Of a stretch of DNA of 64,000 bases, positions 20,881-41,273 are shown piece by piece. A program made the translations under genes and the position numbers. The DNA is taken from NCBI RefSeq assembly GCF_000190435.1, contig NC_015152.1, positions 2,920,458-2,984,457 of the forward strand, written 5' to 3'. The notes beneath the pieces were generated by a model. That model searched no databases. It was not told the DNA's origin and was given only the letters and a program-made list of their open reading frames with translations. Origin of the DNA: Sphaerochaeta globosa str. Buddy. GTDB lineage: Bacteria; Spirochaetota; Spirochaetia; Sphaerochaetales; Sphaerochaetaceae. The number at the start of each line of letters is the position of its first letter. Within the stretch, counting starts at the first letter, position 1.

Positions 20881-22746
20881 TCAGCCCTCTGAATTGGAGG
20901 GCTTTTCTTCATCTCGTACAGCGTAGGTCTTGATGAAAGCTTCGGTTGGAGAACCATAGACCGATAAGAAACCGTCGAAAACACTCTGCCGCTCGGCAAT
21001 CAATTGCTCAGCAACACGATTGCTGATGTTCTGTGGCGTGATGAGCAATACCATCTCCCTCTCGGGCTGCAATTCCAAGTTGATGAAGGGAATTCTTGCT
21101 GCTCTCTCTTCAGCACTGCCTCTTCCATGCAGGATGGTGGCACCGGCTGCTCCATGTTTTCGGGCAAGGTCGACTACCTCGGCGGCAAAACCGCGATTGA
21201 CAACCACGAGGATGCATGTGTGGTCAACAGCTTTTTCTTCTGAAGCGGCTGCCATCTTCACCATGGGTATTTCTTGCGCACCATGCCTGGTTTTCTTTTG
21301 CCTGAATATTGTTCCTAACAGCATGATGGAAAAAACTGGAGCCATGGCAACCATGGCAATGACGCCGAATCCATCCACCAACACGTTTGCTGTCGGGATG
21401 GCCGAGGCGGCTCCTTGTGCAAAGGCCAGAACGAAGGTTGCCATCATCGGACCGGAAGCAACCCCTCCTGCATCAAATGCGATGCCGACAAACACGGGAT
21501 TGCACCAAAACGACAAGAACAAAGCGAAAGCAAAACCCGGGAGCAGGAAATACCATAACTTCACTTCAGGAACAGTGATGCGAACCATGGAGAGTGAAAT
21601 AGCGATGGCTGCACCCAAAGAGAGTGTCAGACGGATGAGTCCGAGAGGTATGGTACCTCCAGTGACTTCCTCGATCTGTACGCCCAGGACATGCACTGCC
21701 GGCTCCATGAGGACGACGATCAGGCCGAAGAGGAATCCTACTGCTATAAGGAGTCTCGTATCCATCGAGGCGATCTGCATACCAATCACCCTGCCCATAT
21801 CCATGAAGCCTGCGTGTACACCGGATAGAAACAACACTAGACCGATAAGTACAAGCAATAGGCCTTTGATAATCCCAAGGATTTCCTTTCGCTTCAGTTT
21901 AAATTTGAATCCGTTGTACACAAAAAACAAGAGCGTGATCGGCAGGAGCGCGATCAGGGACTCCCTTAATGTTGCAGGAATACTTTCCAGAATCGGAGCG
22001 ATTACCCCGACGGAAGGAATAAACACACTGGCCTCACCTTGAATGGTATGCTGCCCGGTGATGAAAGAGATGCACATGACTGCGAGGATGGGTCCGGCAC
22101 TCATGATGCCAACCAAGCCAAATGAGTTTTCCTCGGCATGCCTGCCGCCTTTCGCCTGGGATAGCCCAAGTGTTAAAGCCAGTACGAAAGGAGTCGTCAA
22201 AGCTCCAGTGGTTGCTCCTGAAGCATCGAACGATATTGCAAGAAACTCCTCAGAAACTAGAAAGCCCAGTACAAGAATGACCAAGTAGGTCATCAGCAGG
22301 AAGATATTGATCGATGGCTTATCCCTGAGCAGGCGGAGAATGCCCAGTGAAATCAGCAGGCCCACCCCGCCTGACACCATATATACAATGAGCCTGCTTG
22401 AGAGGGTATGGCCCGACGCTTCCTCAATTTGTGAACCCAGGATCAAAAGATCAGGCTCGGCAACCGTAATGAGAAATCCCAACAAAAAACTTAAAATCAC
22501 CACCCCTAGGAAGGTTTTGGAAGTAGCAACCTCATTGGACATGTACACGCCGATGGGGTGCATGGATAGGTCGATTCCCCATAAGAAAAGAGCAAGCCCC
22601 ACCAAGAGCATCGTACTTCCAACCAAGAAGCGAATAAACATATCCGTTTCCACTTCTATGATGGTAAAACATAATGCCACCACAACCAGCACGAGAGGGA
22701 CCAGTGATTGCAGGACTTCCTTGACTTTACCATAGAGAAGATTCAT
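20881..22746 (-). CDS. DUF1538 membrane protein with C-terminal P-II-like domain
   Basis: A 621-residue protein. Two homologous membrane halves each carry the same two motifs: E-P-x4-L-G-x-Q-I-E-E (97-109 and 348-360) and F-D-A-x-G-x6-T-F/P-V-L-A (173-190 and 424-442). These internal repeats are typical of DUF1538 and look like a duplicated transporter fold with paired half-helices. Residues about 508-607 form a P-II-like domain (VVVNRGFAAEVVDLARKHGA, then ATILHGRGSAE) without a uridylylation Tyr loop. It overlaps the preceding P-II gene (ATGA). The substrate is unknown; I infer an ion or small-solute transporter gated by the P-II-like parts. It converges with the TipA-like gene. Confidence 0.82.
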   Translation of the reverse strand: MNLLYGKVKEVLQSLVPLVLVVVALCFTIIEVETDMFIRFLVGSTMLLVGLALFLWGIDLSMHPIGVYMSNEVATSKTFLGVVILSFLLGFLITVAEPDLLILGSQIEEASGHTLSSRLIVYMVSGGVGLLISLGILRLLRDKPSINIFLLMTYLVILVLGFLVSEEFLAISFDASGATTGALTTPFVLALTLGLSQAKGGRHAEENSFGLVGIMSAGPILAVMCISFITGQHTIQGEASVFIPSVGVIAPILESIPATLRESLIALLPITLLFFVYNGFKFKLKRKEILGIIKGLLLVLIGLVLFLSGVHAGFMDMGRVIGMQIASMDTRLLIAVGFLFGLIVVLMEPAVHVLGVQIEEVTGGTIPLGLIRLTLSLGAAIAISLSMVRITVPEVKLWYFLLPGFAFALFLSFWCNPVFVGIAFDAGGVASGPMMATFVLAFAQGAASAIPTANVLVDGFGVIAMVAMAPVFSIMLLGTIFRQKKTRHGAQEIPMVKMAAASEEKAVDHTCILVVVNRGFAAEVVDLARKHGAAGATILHGRGSAEERAARIPFINLELQPEREMVLLITPQNISNRVAEQLIAERQSVFDGFLSVYGSPTEAFIKTYAVRDEEKPSNSEG

Positions 22747-23441
22747 GACCTGACTCCCCTCTGCTCTGCAACTCTGTTCTCAAATAAACCACTGGTCCTG
22801 AGAACCGGAAGGATGAAGAGAATTCCATTACCTGGGTTCGCCAGGCTCAGTGATTCGGTAATACTCTCTTTGATCGCCTGCAGCGTATCTTTTTTGGATA
22901 GGATGATCACAATATCCTTCTGTGGTTCTATGTTCAGAGAAAAAAAGAAGTCCTTTGGTATACCCGCCCCATGTCCATGCACAATGGTGCCACCTCTCGC
23001 ACCTGCTTTTCGTGCTGCGTACACGCATTCTACTCCCCTGCCCCGCTCCACAATAGTAAGAAGGGCAAAATAGTCATCCATAGGTTTTTGGCTGGGATCA
23101 GGCTTCTTTTCCACGGTATCCCAATTCTTGAATGGGATGGAGAATGCAATCCCCTTTCGTCGCTTATAAAATTTGAATGTTTGGAAGACCATCTCATGCA
23201 AGCCGACACACAGCTCATACCCTGCGCTGATGATCACAATTTCCTTGTGAGCTTGGGAAGGTCTGACTGTATTGAAGAATCTTGAGCGTGTGGTTCCTTC
23301 TGCGAGCAGAATGGTTCCCCCGATTGCTCCAAGCTCCTGGGCCTTTTGCAGCAGAATATTTGCCTTTCCTTTGTTGACAACAGCAAAAAATACGGTATCG
23401 ATGGTAAGCTCCCTTGCACCTGATGAATACTCATAACCCAT
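22743..23441 (-). CDS. Tandem P-II-like signalling protein
   Basis: A 232-residue protein made of two P-II-like halves (about 14-105 and 124-215). Each has the N-terminal strand, then V-N/E-x-G-x-G/A, A-x-x-x-G-A-x-G-G-T-I and a Gly-rich turn (LLAEG or VHGHG). The T-loop is short and lacks the modified Tyr of GlnB, so nucleotide or ion sensing is likelier than nitrogen signalling by uridylylation. Its stop overlaps the DUF1538 gene start. There is no ribosome site. TAGTAT (23453-23448) ends 6 nt before the ATG, so the mRNA may be leaderless. Confidence 0.8.
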   Translation of the reverse strand: MGYEYSSGARELTIDTVFFAVVNKGKANILLQKAQELGAIGGTILLAEGTTRSRFFNTVRPSQAHKEIVIISAGYELCVGLHEMVFQTFKFYKRRKGIAFSIPFKNWDTVEKKPDPSQKPMDDYFALLTIVERGRGVECVYAARKAGARGGTIVHGHGAGIPKDFFFSLNIEPQKDIVIILSKKDTLQAIKESITESLSLANPGNGILFILPVLRTSGLFENRVAEQRGVRS

Positions 23442-23574
23442 GTGTGTATACTATTGTTATACCATACTTTTCCTTGAATTCCCAAAAGATGTTCAAGCTC
23501 ATGCATACACTACGCCCAACCAATCCTGTTGAGGTTGGCAAAGTTGTTGCCCTCAGGATTCCAATGGAAATCGG

Positions 23575-23937
23575 TTATTGCTTCTCTTGCAAAAGGTTGA
23601 GTCGATACCCAATAATTATTGCAATCAGCTCCAAGGGCAGCGGAATTTCCAGCGGCAGCTGAATCGCCCCCTTGCTGGTGGGAAACCCTGCCAGTTCGGC
23701 CTTAAGCGCTTGTATTGTATCAGGCTCAGGGTAGAGTCCGATATGGCTCTTGAACGCTGCCATCTGGATGATGTTCCCACCTTCGGCAAGCCTGAAGGTG
23801 GGCATTCTCCACGAAATGCATTCGCTTACAGAAGGGACCATCCGATGCACCAATGCACGAATTGCTTGCAATCGTTGTTGCTTCTCGCCATCGAATTGCT
23901 TGATGTAGTCATCCACCTCTGTTGCATATTCATTCAT
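23575..23937 (-). CDS. DUF1801 (YdhG-like) domain protein
   Basis: A 120-residue protein of the DUF1801 family with typical segments VDDYIKQFDGEKQQRLQAIR, ISWRMPTF, AAFKSHIGLYP and TSKGAIQLP. The family includes Bacillus Fra (frataxin-like iron chaperone) and poorly characterised proteins. ATG 23937 is favoured over an in-frame ATG at 23970 because GGTGGAAG lies about 7 nt upstream. It starts 4 nt after the aldo/keto reductase stop and is probably co-transcribed with it. Function unknown. Confidence 0.8.
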   Translation of the reverse strand: MNEYATEVDDYIKQFDGEKQQRLQAIRALVHRMVPSVSECISWRMPTFRLAEGGNIIQMAAFKSHIGLYPEPDTIQALKAELAGFPTSKGAIQLPLEIPLPLELIAIIIGYRLNLLQEKQ

Positions 23938-23941
23938 TGTT

Positions 23942-24946
23942 TCACTTCCACCTTTTGCACAGTGCATCAATCTCCGAGAGCTCCTTATTGGTAAAGTCGG
24001 ACTTATTCTCTACAGCCTTCAGATTCACCTTCAGTTGCTCGGCACTGCTGGCGCCGATGAGCACGCTGGTGACCCGCTTGTCCACCAGAAGCCAGGAAAT
24101 TGCCATCTCTGACAAGTTCTGCCCACGTTCCCGGGCAATGGCGTTCAAACCGTTGAGAAGCTCCACCCGCTCCTTAGTAATCGTCTCAGGCTTGAGGAAA
24201 TAGCTTTTACTCGCCCGGGAGTCGGGGGGGATGCTGCCATCGAGGTAGCGGTTGGAGAGCAGGCCTTGGGCGAGCGGTGAGAAACAGATGGTTCCCGCCT
24301 CGCCTTTCATGCCATCCAACAGATGGTCGTCCTCGACCCATCGGTCGAGCATAGAGTAACGGACCTGATTGAGTACACAGGGACACCCCATCTCCTTGAG
24401 CAATGCCATGGCCTTAAGTGCATCGGTTCTATGGTAGTTGGAGATCCCTACATACAACGCCTTTCCCTGCCTGACCAACTGGGCGAGGGCTCCCATCGTC
24501 TCCTCAAGGGGCGTGTTGGGGTCGGGGCGGTGGTGGTAGAATATATCCACATACTCAAGCCCCATGCGCTTCAGGCTCGCATCACAACTGCTGATCAGGT
24601 ACTTGCGGCTGCCCCACTCCCCATAGGGACCGGGCCACATGTAATAGCCTGCCTTGGTGGAGATCAGCATTTCGTCGCGATAGGATCCAAACTGATCACA
24701 AAGCATCTTGCCGAACCGGGTTTCTGCACTTCCAGCAGGCGGGCCGTAGTTGTTGGCAAGGTCGAAATGGGTAATTCCCTGGTCGAATGCGGTGCCGATC
24801 ATCTGTCTGCACACAGCATCGTCCACTCCGTCTCCGAAGTTGTGCCAGAGGCCCAAGGAGAGAACGGGAAGTTTCAAACCGCTTTGTCCTGCGTAGCGGT
24901 ACTGCATTGCATCATATCGAGTCTGTGCTGCTGTATAGGTATTCAT
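23942..24946 (-). CDS. Aldo/keto reductase (L-glyceraldehyde 3-phosphate reductase-like)
   Basis: A 334-residue NADPH-dependent aldo/keto reductase similar to the YghZ/Gpr type. The catalytic tetrad is visible: Asp in HFDLANNYG with its Tyr, Lys in ISTKAGYYMWPGPYG, and His in FYHHRPD. The GPYGEWGSRKYL stretch after the Lys is characteristic of YghZ-like enzymes, which reduce methylglyoxal and L-glyceraldehyde 3-phosphate. No ribosome site precedes the start; TTGACC-16-TATAGT ends 6 nt before ATG 24946, so the transcript is probably leaderless. The gene diverges from a peptidase and is followed by a DUF1801 gene. Confidence 0.9.
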   Translation of the reverse strand: MNTYTAAQTRYDAMQYRYAGQSGLKLPVLSLGLWHNFGDGVDDAVCRQMIGTAFDQGITHFDLANNYGPPAGSAETRFGKMLCDQFGSYRDEMLISTKAGYYMWPGPYGEWGSRKYLISSCDASLKRMGLEYVDIFYHHRPDPNTPLEETMGALAQLVRQGKALYVGISNYHRTDALKAMALLKEMGCPCVLNQVRYSMLDRWVEDDHLLDGMKGEAGTICFSPLAQGLLSNRYLDGSIPPDSRASKSYFLKPETITKERVELLNGLNAIARERGQNLSEMAISWLLVDKRVTSVLIGASSAEQLKVNLKAVENKSDFTNKELSEIDALCKRWK

Positions 24947-39069: not shown

Positions 39070-39675
39070 CTACCTTCCAAGTTTTGCAACTTCTTGCACT
39101 GCGAAGGTAAAGGCGATCCCGCTACCGGGTTTTTGCATGCACGAAAGGCCGGCAATCGCCGCTAAAATATTGTGTGTATCGTCGCGTTTCACGAACATGA
39201 GCAAAAGCTCTTTTTCTGCAACCAATGTCGAGCCGTAAAAAGCAATATCATCAGGCAGTGCAGTACCCCGGCCATCGATGATGGTTCCCCCGCCTGCTCC
39301 AACCTTTCTGGCGGCGCTCATGATGTCATCGCCATACCCATTGGTGCAGATAACATTGATCAGGTCCCACTCACCACCCTTTTGCGGTGTGCTTGGTGTC
39401 CCATCCCATGAAGCAGTGACAGCAGCAAGGATTCCGTGAACATGCCGATCAGAGAGCAGAGCCTCCCATACTGCGGGCTTCACCGCCTCCGAGACCACTG
39501 TCATCAGAATTTCCTTATGAGAGTCTCCTAAGCCTAGAAGGCACAAGAACGAATTGGAAGCCGTACCCCGTCCGGTAAGGATGGTACCACCCGTACTGCC
39601 GGCCCGCTTGGCCGTCAGCATCAGAGCATCGGCCTTCCCTTCCTCAACAATTGCAAATAACAAGGTATTACTCAT
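39070..39675 (-). CDS. Tandem P-II-like signalling protein, second copy
   Basis: A 201-residue protein of two P-II-like halves (about 4-85 and 104-195). Each has the hallmark AxKRAGSTGGTILTGRG-type run, here SAARKVGAGGGTIIDGRG in the second half. As in the other module, the T-loop lacks a uridylylation Tyr context. It is the second gene of its pair: its ATG overlaps the DUF1538 stop (ATGA), and GGAGG lies within the upstream gene. It probably binds the partner's cytosolic side or senses nucleotides or ions. Not GlnB/GlnK, because the standard T-loop and Prosite motifs are missing. Confidence 0.82.
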   Translation of the reverse strand: MSNTLLFAIVEEGKADALMLTAKRAGSTGGTILTGRGTASNSFLCLLGLGDSHKEILMTVVSEAVKPAVWEALLSDRHVHGILAAVTASWDGTPSTPQKGGEWDLINVICTNGYGDDIMSAARKVGAGGGTIIDGRGTALPDDIAFYGSTLVAEKELLLMFVKRDDTHNILAAIAGLSCMQKPGSGIAFTFAVQEVAKLGR

Positions 39676-41138
39676 ATGCCCTTTCCTCCTTTCGCAGCTG
39701 CCATCTTCTTTTGTGTCCGTTTGTACACGAGGCCAAGAAGTTCGACGATGACCACGGGGGTCATGGAAACAAATATGATTACACCGAACGCATCGCTAAC
39801 AGGATTGCCCCCCATTGCCACCGATGAACCGATGGCAAAGGAAAGGATGAATGTCGAGGCCATGGGGCCGGAGGACACGCTGCCGCTGTCAAACGACAGT
39901 CCTACGAACAAGTCGGGGACCCAGAAAGAGAGCAATACGGCCAAGGCATAGGTGGGGAGAACAAAATACCAGATGCTCAGGCCGGTGATCACCCTCACCA
40001 TGGAAAGAAATCCGGAAAGCCCTACTCCGATTGCCAGGGCGCCAAGCATGACTGGTTTCTTCAGATGGCCTTGGGTTATAACCTGCACCTGGTCCACCAG
40101 AACCCAGACTGAGGGTTCACTGAGGACGGTTATGGCCCCGATGACAGAGCCCACCACCAAAAGAAGATAGGGATTGAACATTCCTATGGTGTACCCGATT
40201 TGATAGCCGACGGGAATAAAGCCTCCATTGGACCCCACAAAGAAGAGCGTGAGACCAAGAAAGAGGTAGATGAAACCAATGCCGAGACGAACGAGCTGGC
40301 CCAAGGGCATTTTCAAGAGAAACACTTGATAGAAAAGGCACAGCAGCAAGAGCGGCACGAGTGCCTTGGAAGTCATAATGATGCTTGGTAGGAACAGGGA
40401 GGGAAAATTGCCGTCAATGGCAATACTTACTTCTGACGGTCCCGCTGAACCTCCTCCTTGCGTGAAGAGGGCAAGGATTGCAATGGCAAGCGTAGGCCCG
40501 ATGAGCGCAAGGGAGACATAGCCGAAATTGTCAGCGTCGTTTTGTTTTTTCTGGACACGGGCGATACCTACACCGATGGCGATGATGAAGGGAACGGACA
40601 GGGGACCGGTTGCGGCTCCTCCGCTGTCAAAGGCGATGCCCATCATCTCAGACGGACCGAAGATAAACAGAATAAAAATCAACGTGTAGCTGATCAGGTA
40701 AATCCAGCGAAGCGACAGATGAAATATTACCCGGGCTATACCGATCATAAAATACAAGCCTACACCGAGGGCTATCATGGCTATGAGGCTGGCGGCCGAC
40801 AAAAAGGGATTCACCCCTTTTATCTGTTCCACCAACACTACAATATTTGGTTCTGCCAGTATGATTACCACACCAACAACAAGGCCGGTTCCCAGAAGGA
40901 CAATAAGGTGTTTGGATTGCATTGCAGCCGATCCAATTTTCTCTCCGATGGGCAACAGGCCGATTTCGGTTCCCAGCAAGAAAAGGGAGAGCCCACCAAT
41001 AATGCAAGCACCACCGATAAGGAAGGAGACCAGAGACCCTTCAGGCAAGGGCGTAAGAAAGAAATGCATAAGGGTTACGAGCACAAGGATGGGGATTATG
41101 GACGAGCCAACTTCCTTGAGCTTCTTGAGCAACTCCAT
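39672..41138 (-). CDS. DUF1538 membrane protein, second copy, without fused P-II domain
   Basis: A 488-residue membrane protein. It shows the same internal duplication as the 20.9-kb copy: E-P-N/S-x4-L-V-x-Q-I/V (96-106 and 341-351) and F-D-S-G-x5-G-P (170-180 and 416-426). About 12-14 hydrophobic segments are seen. It ends after the second membrane half, with no fused P-II domain. AAGGAGG lies 6 nt before the ATG. The paired E-P and F-D-S-G motifs in half-helix-like positions suggest a duplicated transport fold. Its ligand is unknown. Confidence 0.82.
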   Translation of the reverse strand: MELLKKLKEVGSSIIPILVLVTLMHFFLTPLPEGSLVSFLIGGACIIGGLSLFLLGTEIGLLPIGEKIGSAAMQSKHLIVLLGTGLVVGVVIILAEPNIVVLVEQIKGVNPFLSAASLIAMIALGVGLYFMIGIARVIFHLSLRWIYLISYTLIFILFIFGPSEMMGIAFDSGGAATGPLSVPFIIAIGVGIARVQKKQNDADNFGYVSLALIGPTLAIAILALFTQGGGSAGPSEVSIAIDGNFPSLFLPSIIMTSKALVPLLLLCLFYQVFLLKMPLGQLVRLGIGFIYLFLGLTLFFVGSNGGFIPVGYQIGYTIGMFNPYLLLVVGSVIGAITVLSEPSVWVLVDQVQVITQGHLKKPVMLGALAIGVGLSGFLSMVRVITGLSIWYFVLPTYALAVLLSFWVPDLFVGLSFDSGSVSSGPMASTFILSFAIGSSVAMGGNPVSDAFGVIIFVSMTPVVIVELLGLVYKRTQKKMAAAKGGKGI

Positions 41139-41273
41139 GCAATCCTCCTTGTGCTGGAAATAGAAACTTTCCTTCGTGGAATGAGATACTTTATGTGTTA
41201 ATTATACAAAGAATTATTACTCTGTAAGTAAAAAAAGGTCAAGCCGGCAAAAATAGAATTCTTTTGAACCTAC

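Follow-up and report, generated by a model that had tools for sequence, protein, structure and literature searches.

A DUF1538 membrane protein paired with a tandem P-II protein in Sphaerochaeta globosa: a probable P-II-gated cation/proton antiporter

The window analysed here, a 64,000-nucleotide stretch of Sphaerochaeta globosa str. Buddy (NC_015152.1, positions 2,920,458 to 2,984,457), carries two modules in which the gene for a DUF1538 membrane protein overlaps a gene for a P-II-like protein. Few signalling proteins are as widespread as P-II proteins, which are known mostly for nitrogen and carbon control, and the question raised by this locus is what such a protein does beside a DUF1538 protein. 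The sequence-only reading had described, at 39 kb, a DUF1538 gene followed by a 201-aa tandem P-II gene; its coordinates, lengths and gene order hold, on the minus strand, and the sequence bears out the 4-nt ATGA overlaps that it had reported for both modules. The parts of the 39-kb module are as follows.

39672..41138, minus strand: DUF1538 membrane protein, 488 aa, two repeats, one-chain UmpA-UmpB homologue (Pfam PF07556, NCBIfam, AlphaFold2)
39070..39675, minus strand: tandem P-II protein, 201 aa, two P-II-fold domains (Pfam, two-domain homologue profile, model, structure superposition)
39412..39675, minus strand: first P-II domain, residues 1-88 (secondary structure elements of the model, column analysis)
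39079..39369, minus strand: second P-II domain, residues 103-199, the better conserved of the two (Pfam, model, columns, superposition)
39672..39675, minus strand: ATGA overlap of DUF1538 stop and P-II start (TCAT on the plus strand)
40851..40853, minus strand: codon of invariant Glu96, AEP motif, repeat 1 (52 sequences)
40626..40628, minus strand: codon of invariant Asp171, FDSGG motif, repeat 1 (52 sequences)
40116..40118, minus strand: codon of invariant Glu341, SEP motif, repeat 2 (52 sequences)
39888..39890, minus strand: codon of invariant Asp417, FDSGS motif, repeat 2 (52 sequences)
41201..41242, minus strand: two overlapping, weak sigma-70-like promoter candidates 5' of the DUF1538 gene (10/12 matches each)

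Both genes are preceded by an AGGAGG Shine-Dalgarno sequence (CCTCCT on the plus strand at 41144-41149 and 39685-39690), and the region upstream of the DUF1538 gene contains six sigma-70-like sites against 3.0 expected. The tRNA is the only RNA match in the window, with no riboswitch found at the module; among 28 related loci, T-box, Guanidine-I, 6S and group II intron matches are single cases that are not shared, and riboswitch control was rejected.

The 488-aa protein matches PF07556 (DUF1538) twice, with 376.1 bits against a cut-off of 22.6; this is its sole Pfam match at E values up to 1, and it does not fall into the SbtA family. Its NCBIfam scores for UmpA (137.6 bits) and UmpB (100.4 bits) stay below the equivalog cut-offs of 490 and 500, so that it is a homologue of both that could not be called an equivalog, and the ion that it would transport is predicted from this homology. 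The AlphaFold2 model has a pLDDT of 90.7; DUF1538 has no sequence match among solved structures, and comparison of the model with them gave a best Foldseek E of 0.02 and a best VIA Z of 5.4 over 87 residues, values on which we do not call the fold new. For the 201-aa protein, Pfam recognises P-II in the second domain only (26.6 bits, cut-off 25), and AlphaFold2 returned two P-II-type domains (pLDDT 88.6, pTM 0.82, 62 input sequences). The second domain superposes on the PII structure 1hwu with Z 10.5 and an rmsd of 2.0 over 90 residues, and the first is identified as P-II through the homologue profiles, with two domains per protein, and the model only. Foldseek matches of the whole tandem protein to chlorite dismutase (TM under 0.3, rmsd about 17) were discarded as an artefact of two ferredoxin-like domains in a row.

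The pairing of the two genes was surveyed in 186 DUF1538 genes. Most belong to Spirochaetota and Clostridia and a few to relatives of Desulfovibrio; 177 were left once near-identical copies had been removed. A P-II gene, nearly always with two domains, lies directly downstream on the same strand in 166 of the 177; in five others P-II lies upstream and a further P-II domain is fused to the C-terminus of the DUF1538 protein, one has P-II upstream only, and five have no neighbouring P-II. One of these last lies at a contig edge, and the four with readable flanks are true exceptions, found in G281 (two genes), G295 and G373, all three of which carry a tandem P-II gene elsewhere. The P-II start codon falls between -30 and +20 bases from the DUF1538 stop in 152 of 172 pairs, and an ATG stands exactly at the ATGA position in 56 of the 172 related pairs. 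The P-II profile was built from the surveyed loci themselves, and its calls agree with two independent sources, Pfam and the annotation deposited for plasmids of Clostridia and Alphaproteobacteria. Across 393 spirochaete genomes, DUF1538 was found in 145, tandem P-II in 122 (E 1e-20) and both in 118 (Fisher p 1e-67, not corrected for shared ancestry); G091, G291, G347 and G325 have tandem P-II and no DUF1538 match. The tandem genes of G091 (L289:4453-5082) and G291 (L290:4292-4948) come from two genomes of one genus. In G224 (L077:3883-7684), one tandem P-II gene sits between two DUF1538 genes. We found no published description of the DUF1538/P-II pairing in the open-access literature, and no relatives of the module among viral contigs.

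The partners also share their history. Tree distances of 150 DUF1538/P-II pairs correlate with r 0.78 (shuffled maximum 0.11), a value that species history alone could explain. A swap test within the S. globosa genome showed that each P-II protein correlates with the transporter of its own module (r 0.70 and 0.82) but not with that of the other (0.12 and -0.24), and the same was seen in G422 and G324; the test was uninformative in two genomes with closely related paralogues (L038/L039 and L060/L061). In inter-protein mutual information, the top pairs hardly rose above a phylogeny-aware null in which partners were dealt again among near relatives. The phylogenetic check proposed in the sequence-only reading thus found paralogue-specific co-evolution, and its view of the pair as a functional unit is strongly supported by near-universal adjacency, translational overlap, fusion in one subtype and this co-evolution. 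That view was to be weakened if DUF1538 genes in relatives usually lacked P-II neighbours; P-II adjoins nearly all of them.

The second module, the only other place in the 3.32-Mb genome with a DUF1538 gene, has the following parts.

20881..22746, minus strand: paralogous DUF1538 protein, 621 aa, with a fused C-terminal P-II domain (Pfam, P-II homologue profile)
20923..21234, minus strand: fused P-II domain, residues 505-608 (E 1.9e-21 with the P-II homologue profile)
22743..23441, minus strand: tandem P-II protein, 232 aa, ATGA overlap with the DUF1538 gene (Pfam, homologue profile)

The P-II gene comes first here and the membrane protein has an extra P-II domain, as had been noted from the sequence; identity between the modules is 33% for DUF1538 and 30% for P-II. 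It is not the 39-kb order that is reversed, as had been proposed: DUF1538 followed by P-II is the rule, and the 20.9-kb order (P-II, then DUF1538-P-II) is a rare variant, seen among the 186 genes in five genomes only, all of one family. The 39-kb module is probably ancestral in the genus, because a tRNA gene adjoins it at the same position in four congeners. The 20.9-kb form is missing from some congeners. Positions 21700-24240 of the window (21.7-24.2 kb) are 99.6-100% identical to G422 against a surrounding background of about 76-84%, and in G326 the two flanks of the module are only 83 bases apart and the module is missing; this near-identity and the empty site suggest recent exchange by recombination between species, with presence/absence variation. 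Different substrates, which had been suggested for the two modules, find no support, as neither has lost the invariant AEP glutamates or FD aspartates; it is possible that the modules differ in signal or wiring.

The number of P-II domains varies on this one transporter family. The 27 spirochaete genomes with DUF1538 but no tandem P-II (G202, at a contig end, and G055, a spurious fragment, were not judged) mostly contain a long DUF1538 subfamily of about 550-750 aa. Directly after the long gene comes one whose product measures about 370-500 aa from stop to stop and has three P-II-like domains; the middle domain is clear (E 1e-8 or better), and in some members the outer two give weak matches. 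This subfamily (L259-L284, L299-L302) has extra stretches between its helices, and its three-domain partner is largely missed by Pfam. Some Clostridia encode the two P-II domains in separate genes that lie side by side, and on Chelativorans and Methylocystis plasmids split, umpA-umpB-like DUF1538 genes are followed by a one-domain P-II. The family thus occurs with a single P-II domain, with two (in separate genes or in tandem), with two and a fused third, and with three in one chain. S. globosa also has, as an orphan, one single-domain P-II of the type associated with DUF1538 (L255:3196-3714, about 758695-759213, minus strand, E 5.5e-38), which comes after an HpcH/HpaI-type aldolase-like gene with no DUF1538 nearby, and lone single-domain P-II genes occur in G326 and G359 as well (L296, L297).

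The type of P-II was judged from a residue comparison of a 62-sequence set, with E. coli GlnB as one reference and the P-II domain fused to the ammonium transporter (Amt) of S. globosa as the second. T29, G35, K58 and G89 are largely kept in the partner P-II domains, and G87 is also kept in domain 2, so that the K58 position and the domain 2 B-loop glycines persist. On the other hand, Q39, K90, R101 and R103, which serve 2-oxoglutarate and MgATP, are replaced in nearly all (position 101 of domain 1 is R in 23%), the T-loop is about six residues shorter and the uridylylation site Y51 is missing; the classical 2-oxoglutarate, uridylylation and phosphate-binding residues are gone. The partners are P-II-fold proteins and not the canonical nitrogen regulators GlnB or GlnK, and classical 2-oxoglutarate sensing and uridylylation are unlikely for them because Q39 and Y51 are missing. 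We also considered c-di-AMP as a universal ligand and consider it less likely, since most alphaproteobacteria are not known to make c-di-AMP.

On the transporter side, UmpAB of Halomonas zhaodongensis, a DUF1538 pair of two homologous proteins encoded by separate genes, is a Na+(Li+, K+)/H+ antiporter according to complementation and vesicle assays (PMC5484666). The cloned fragment ended with umpB and worked in E. coli, so P-II was not essential there; P-II is not mentioned in that paper (PMC5484666). By analogy, antiport of the UmpAB kind is a likely function for the DUF1538/P-II unit. E96, D171, E341 and D417 are invariant in 52 sequences, and the same motifs occur in the 20.9-kb module, the long subfamily and the split pairs; the four residues are candidate ion sites.

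Taken together, we read the module as a P-II-gated cation/proton antiporter that would operate in the manner of SbtA-SbtB or AmtB-GlnK, with a probability of about 0.68, and it is very probable that bacteria use P-II sensors to control DUF1538-class ion exchangers. The 488-aa one-chain UmpA-UmpB protein would exchange Na+ (Li+, K+) for H+ via two AEP/FD acidic sites. The P-II domains would dock on its cytosolic face, as judged from SbtA-SbtB, GlnK-Amt, the P-II fusion to the transporter and the Amt-P-II fusion in the same genome, and would insert their short loops, which are conserved as LGLG in the first domain and as KFFG in the second (I Y G in this copy). Transport may be switched by a ligand that binds between the P-II domains, with an adenine nucleotide as the likeliest candidate; inhibition would be the likelier sign of control, given that UmpAB is active in E. 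coli when no P-II gene has been cloned with it. Against this gated-antiporter reading stand the few genomes in which DUF1538 and P-II lie apart, the four that have tandem P-II without a DUF1538 match, the UmpA/UmpB scores under the equivalog cut-offs and the mutual information between the partners, which does not clearly exceed its null.

Could the P-II protein instead serve the transporter constitutively, as a structural subunit or an assembly factor, and not as a ligand-driven switch? The near 1:1 co-occurrence with co-evolution, the fused P-II-transporter form and the lost classical ligand residues would all suit such a role. We nevertheless consider it unlikely: UmpAB was active in E. coli from a fragment ending with umpB (PMC5484666), three genomes keep their DUF1538 and P-II genes unlinked, and conservation persists at K58 and at the B-loop glycines of domain 2, which one would expect of a ligand pocket. 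There is likewise only a small chance that DUF1538 proteins of the present type move another substrate, such as an organic anion or an ammonium-related compound, with cation coupling, while P-II senses the carbon/nitrogen state classically. The acidic motifs shared with the split umpA-umpB-like pairs and P-II domains without Q39 and Y51 speak against this, even though only a single DUF1538 pair has been assayed in the family, the UmpA/UmpB scores are far below the equivalog cut-offs and the predicted DUF1538 fold has no solved relative that we could find. It is very improbable that shared ancestry or genome organisation brought the two genes together by chance and that P-II acts elsewhere in the cell. 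Tandem P-II without a DUF1538 match in four genomes and the orphan P-II of this type in S. globosa would fit such a reading; against it, the pair is found in Spirochaetota, Clostridia, Desulfovibrio and Alphaproteobacteria, the P-II domains numbering one, two or three and being either fused or separate, and it co-evolves paralogue by paralogue.

A P-II-gated antiporter at this locus also invites a wider proposal, which we put forward tentatively and at somewhat less than even odds: DUF1538 antiporters as a whole could be P-II-controlled cation/proton exchangers in which a P-II trimer has progressively been built into fewer chains, from one domain (alphaproteobacteria) through two separate or tandem domains (Clostridia, Spirochaetota) and two plus one fused (the 20.9-kb module) to three in one chain (the long subfamily). 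An energy-type signal would then set internal Na+/K+ and pH, and P-II would regulate ion homeostasis, not nitrogen. Through a co-evolving pairing, present in several phyla, with the family to which a proven cation/proton antiporter belongs, P-II signalling would reach beyond nitrogen and carbon to sodium/potassium and pH balance. The pairing also offers a natural test set, in which a single transporter family carries one, two, three or fused P-II domains, and it hints at what may be the role of many proteins that are annotated 'nitrogen regulator' and lack the nitrogen-sensing residues.

Compared with known systems, the 39-kb module has in common with UmpAB the DUF1538 repeats and two homologous halves acting together; the halves are two genes in Halomonas and one fused chain here, where the equivalog cut-offs are not reached. 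SbtA-SbtB of cyanobacteria is a bicarbonate transporter with a P-II-like regulator, and SbtB acts negatively on SbtA in E. coli (PMC10117731). Like it, the present module has a transporter gene with an adjacent P-II-like gene, in an operon whose P-II-fold regulator is without classical nitrogen-type control; however, the transporter is DUF1538 and not Sbt_1, the predicted substrate differs, and SbtB has one domain where there are two here. AmtB-GlnK is an ammonium channel with a P-II protein (PMC8395244). GlnK senses ATP/ADP and 2-oxoglutarate via Q39, K90, R101 and R103, whereas these are replaced here and the T-loop is shorter and has no Y51. In S. globosa, the best-scoring canonical P-II forms the C-terminal part of a fusion with an ammonium transporter (579 aa; L256:1334-3073, about 1181833-1183572, plus strand; Pfam Ammonium_transp 412 bits, P-II 82 bits). 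What is shared with AmtB-GlnK is a P-II gene beside a transporter, or fused to one as in this Amt, and T-loop plugging is the model for the mechanism that we propose.
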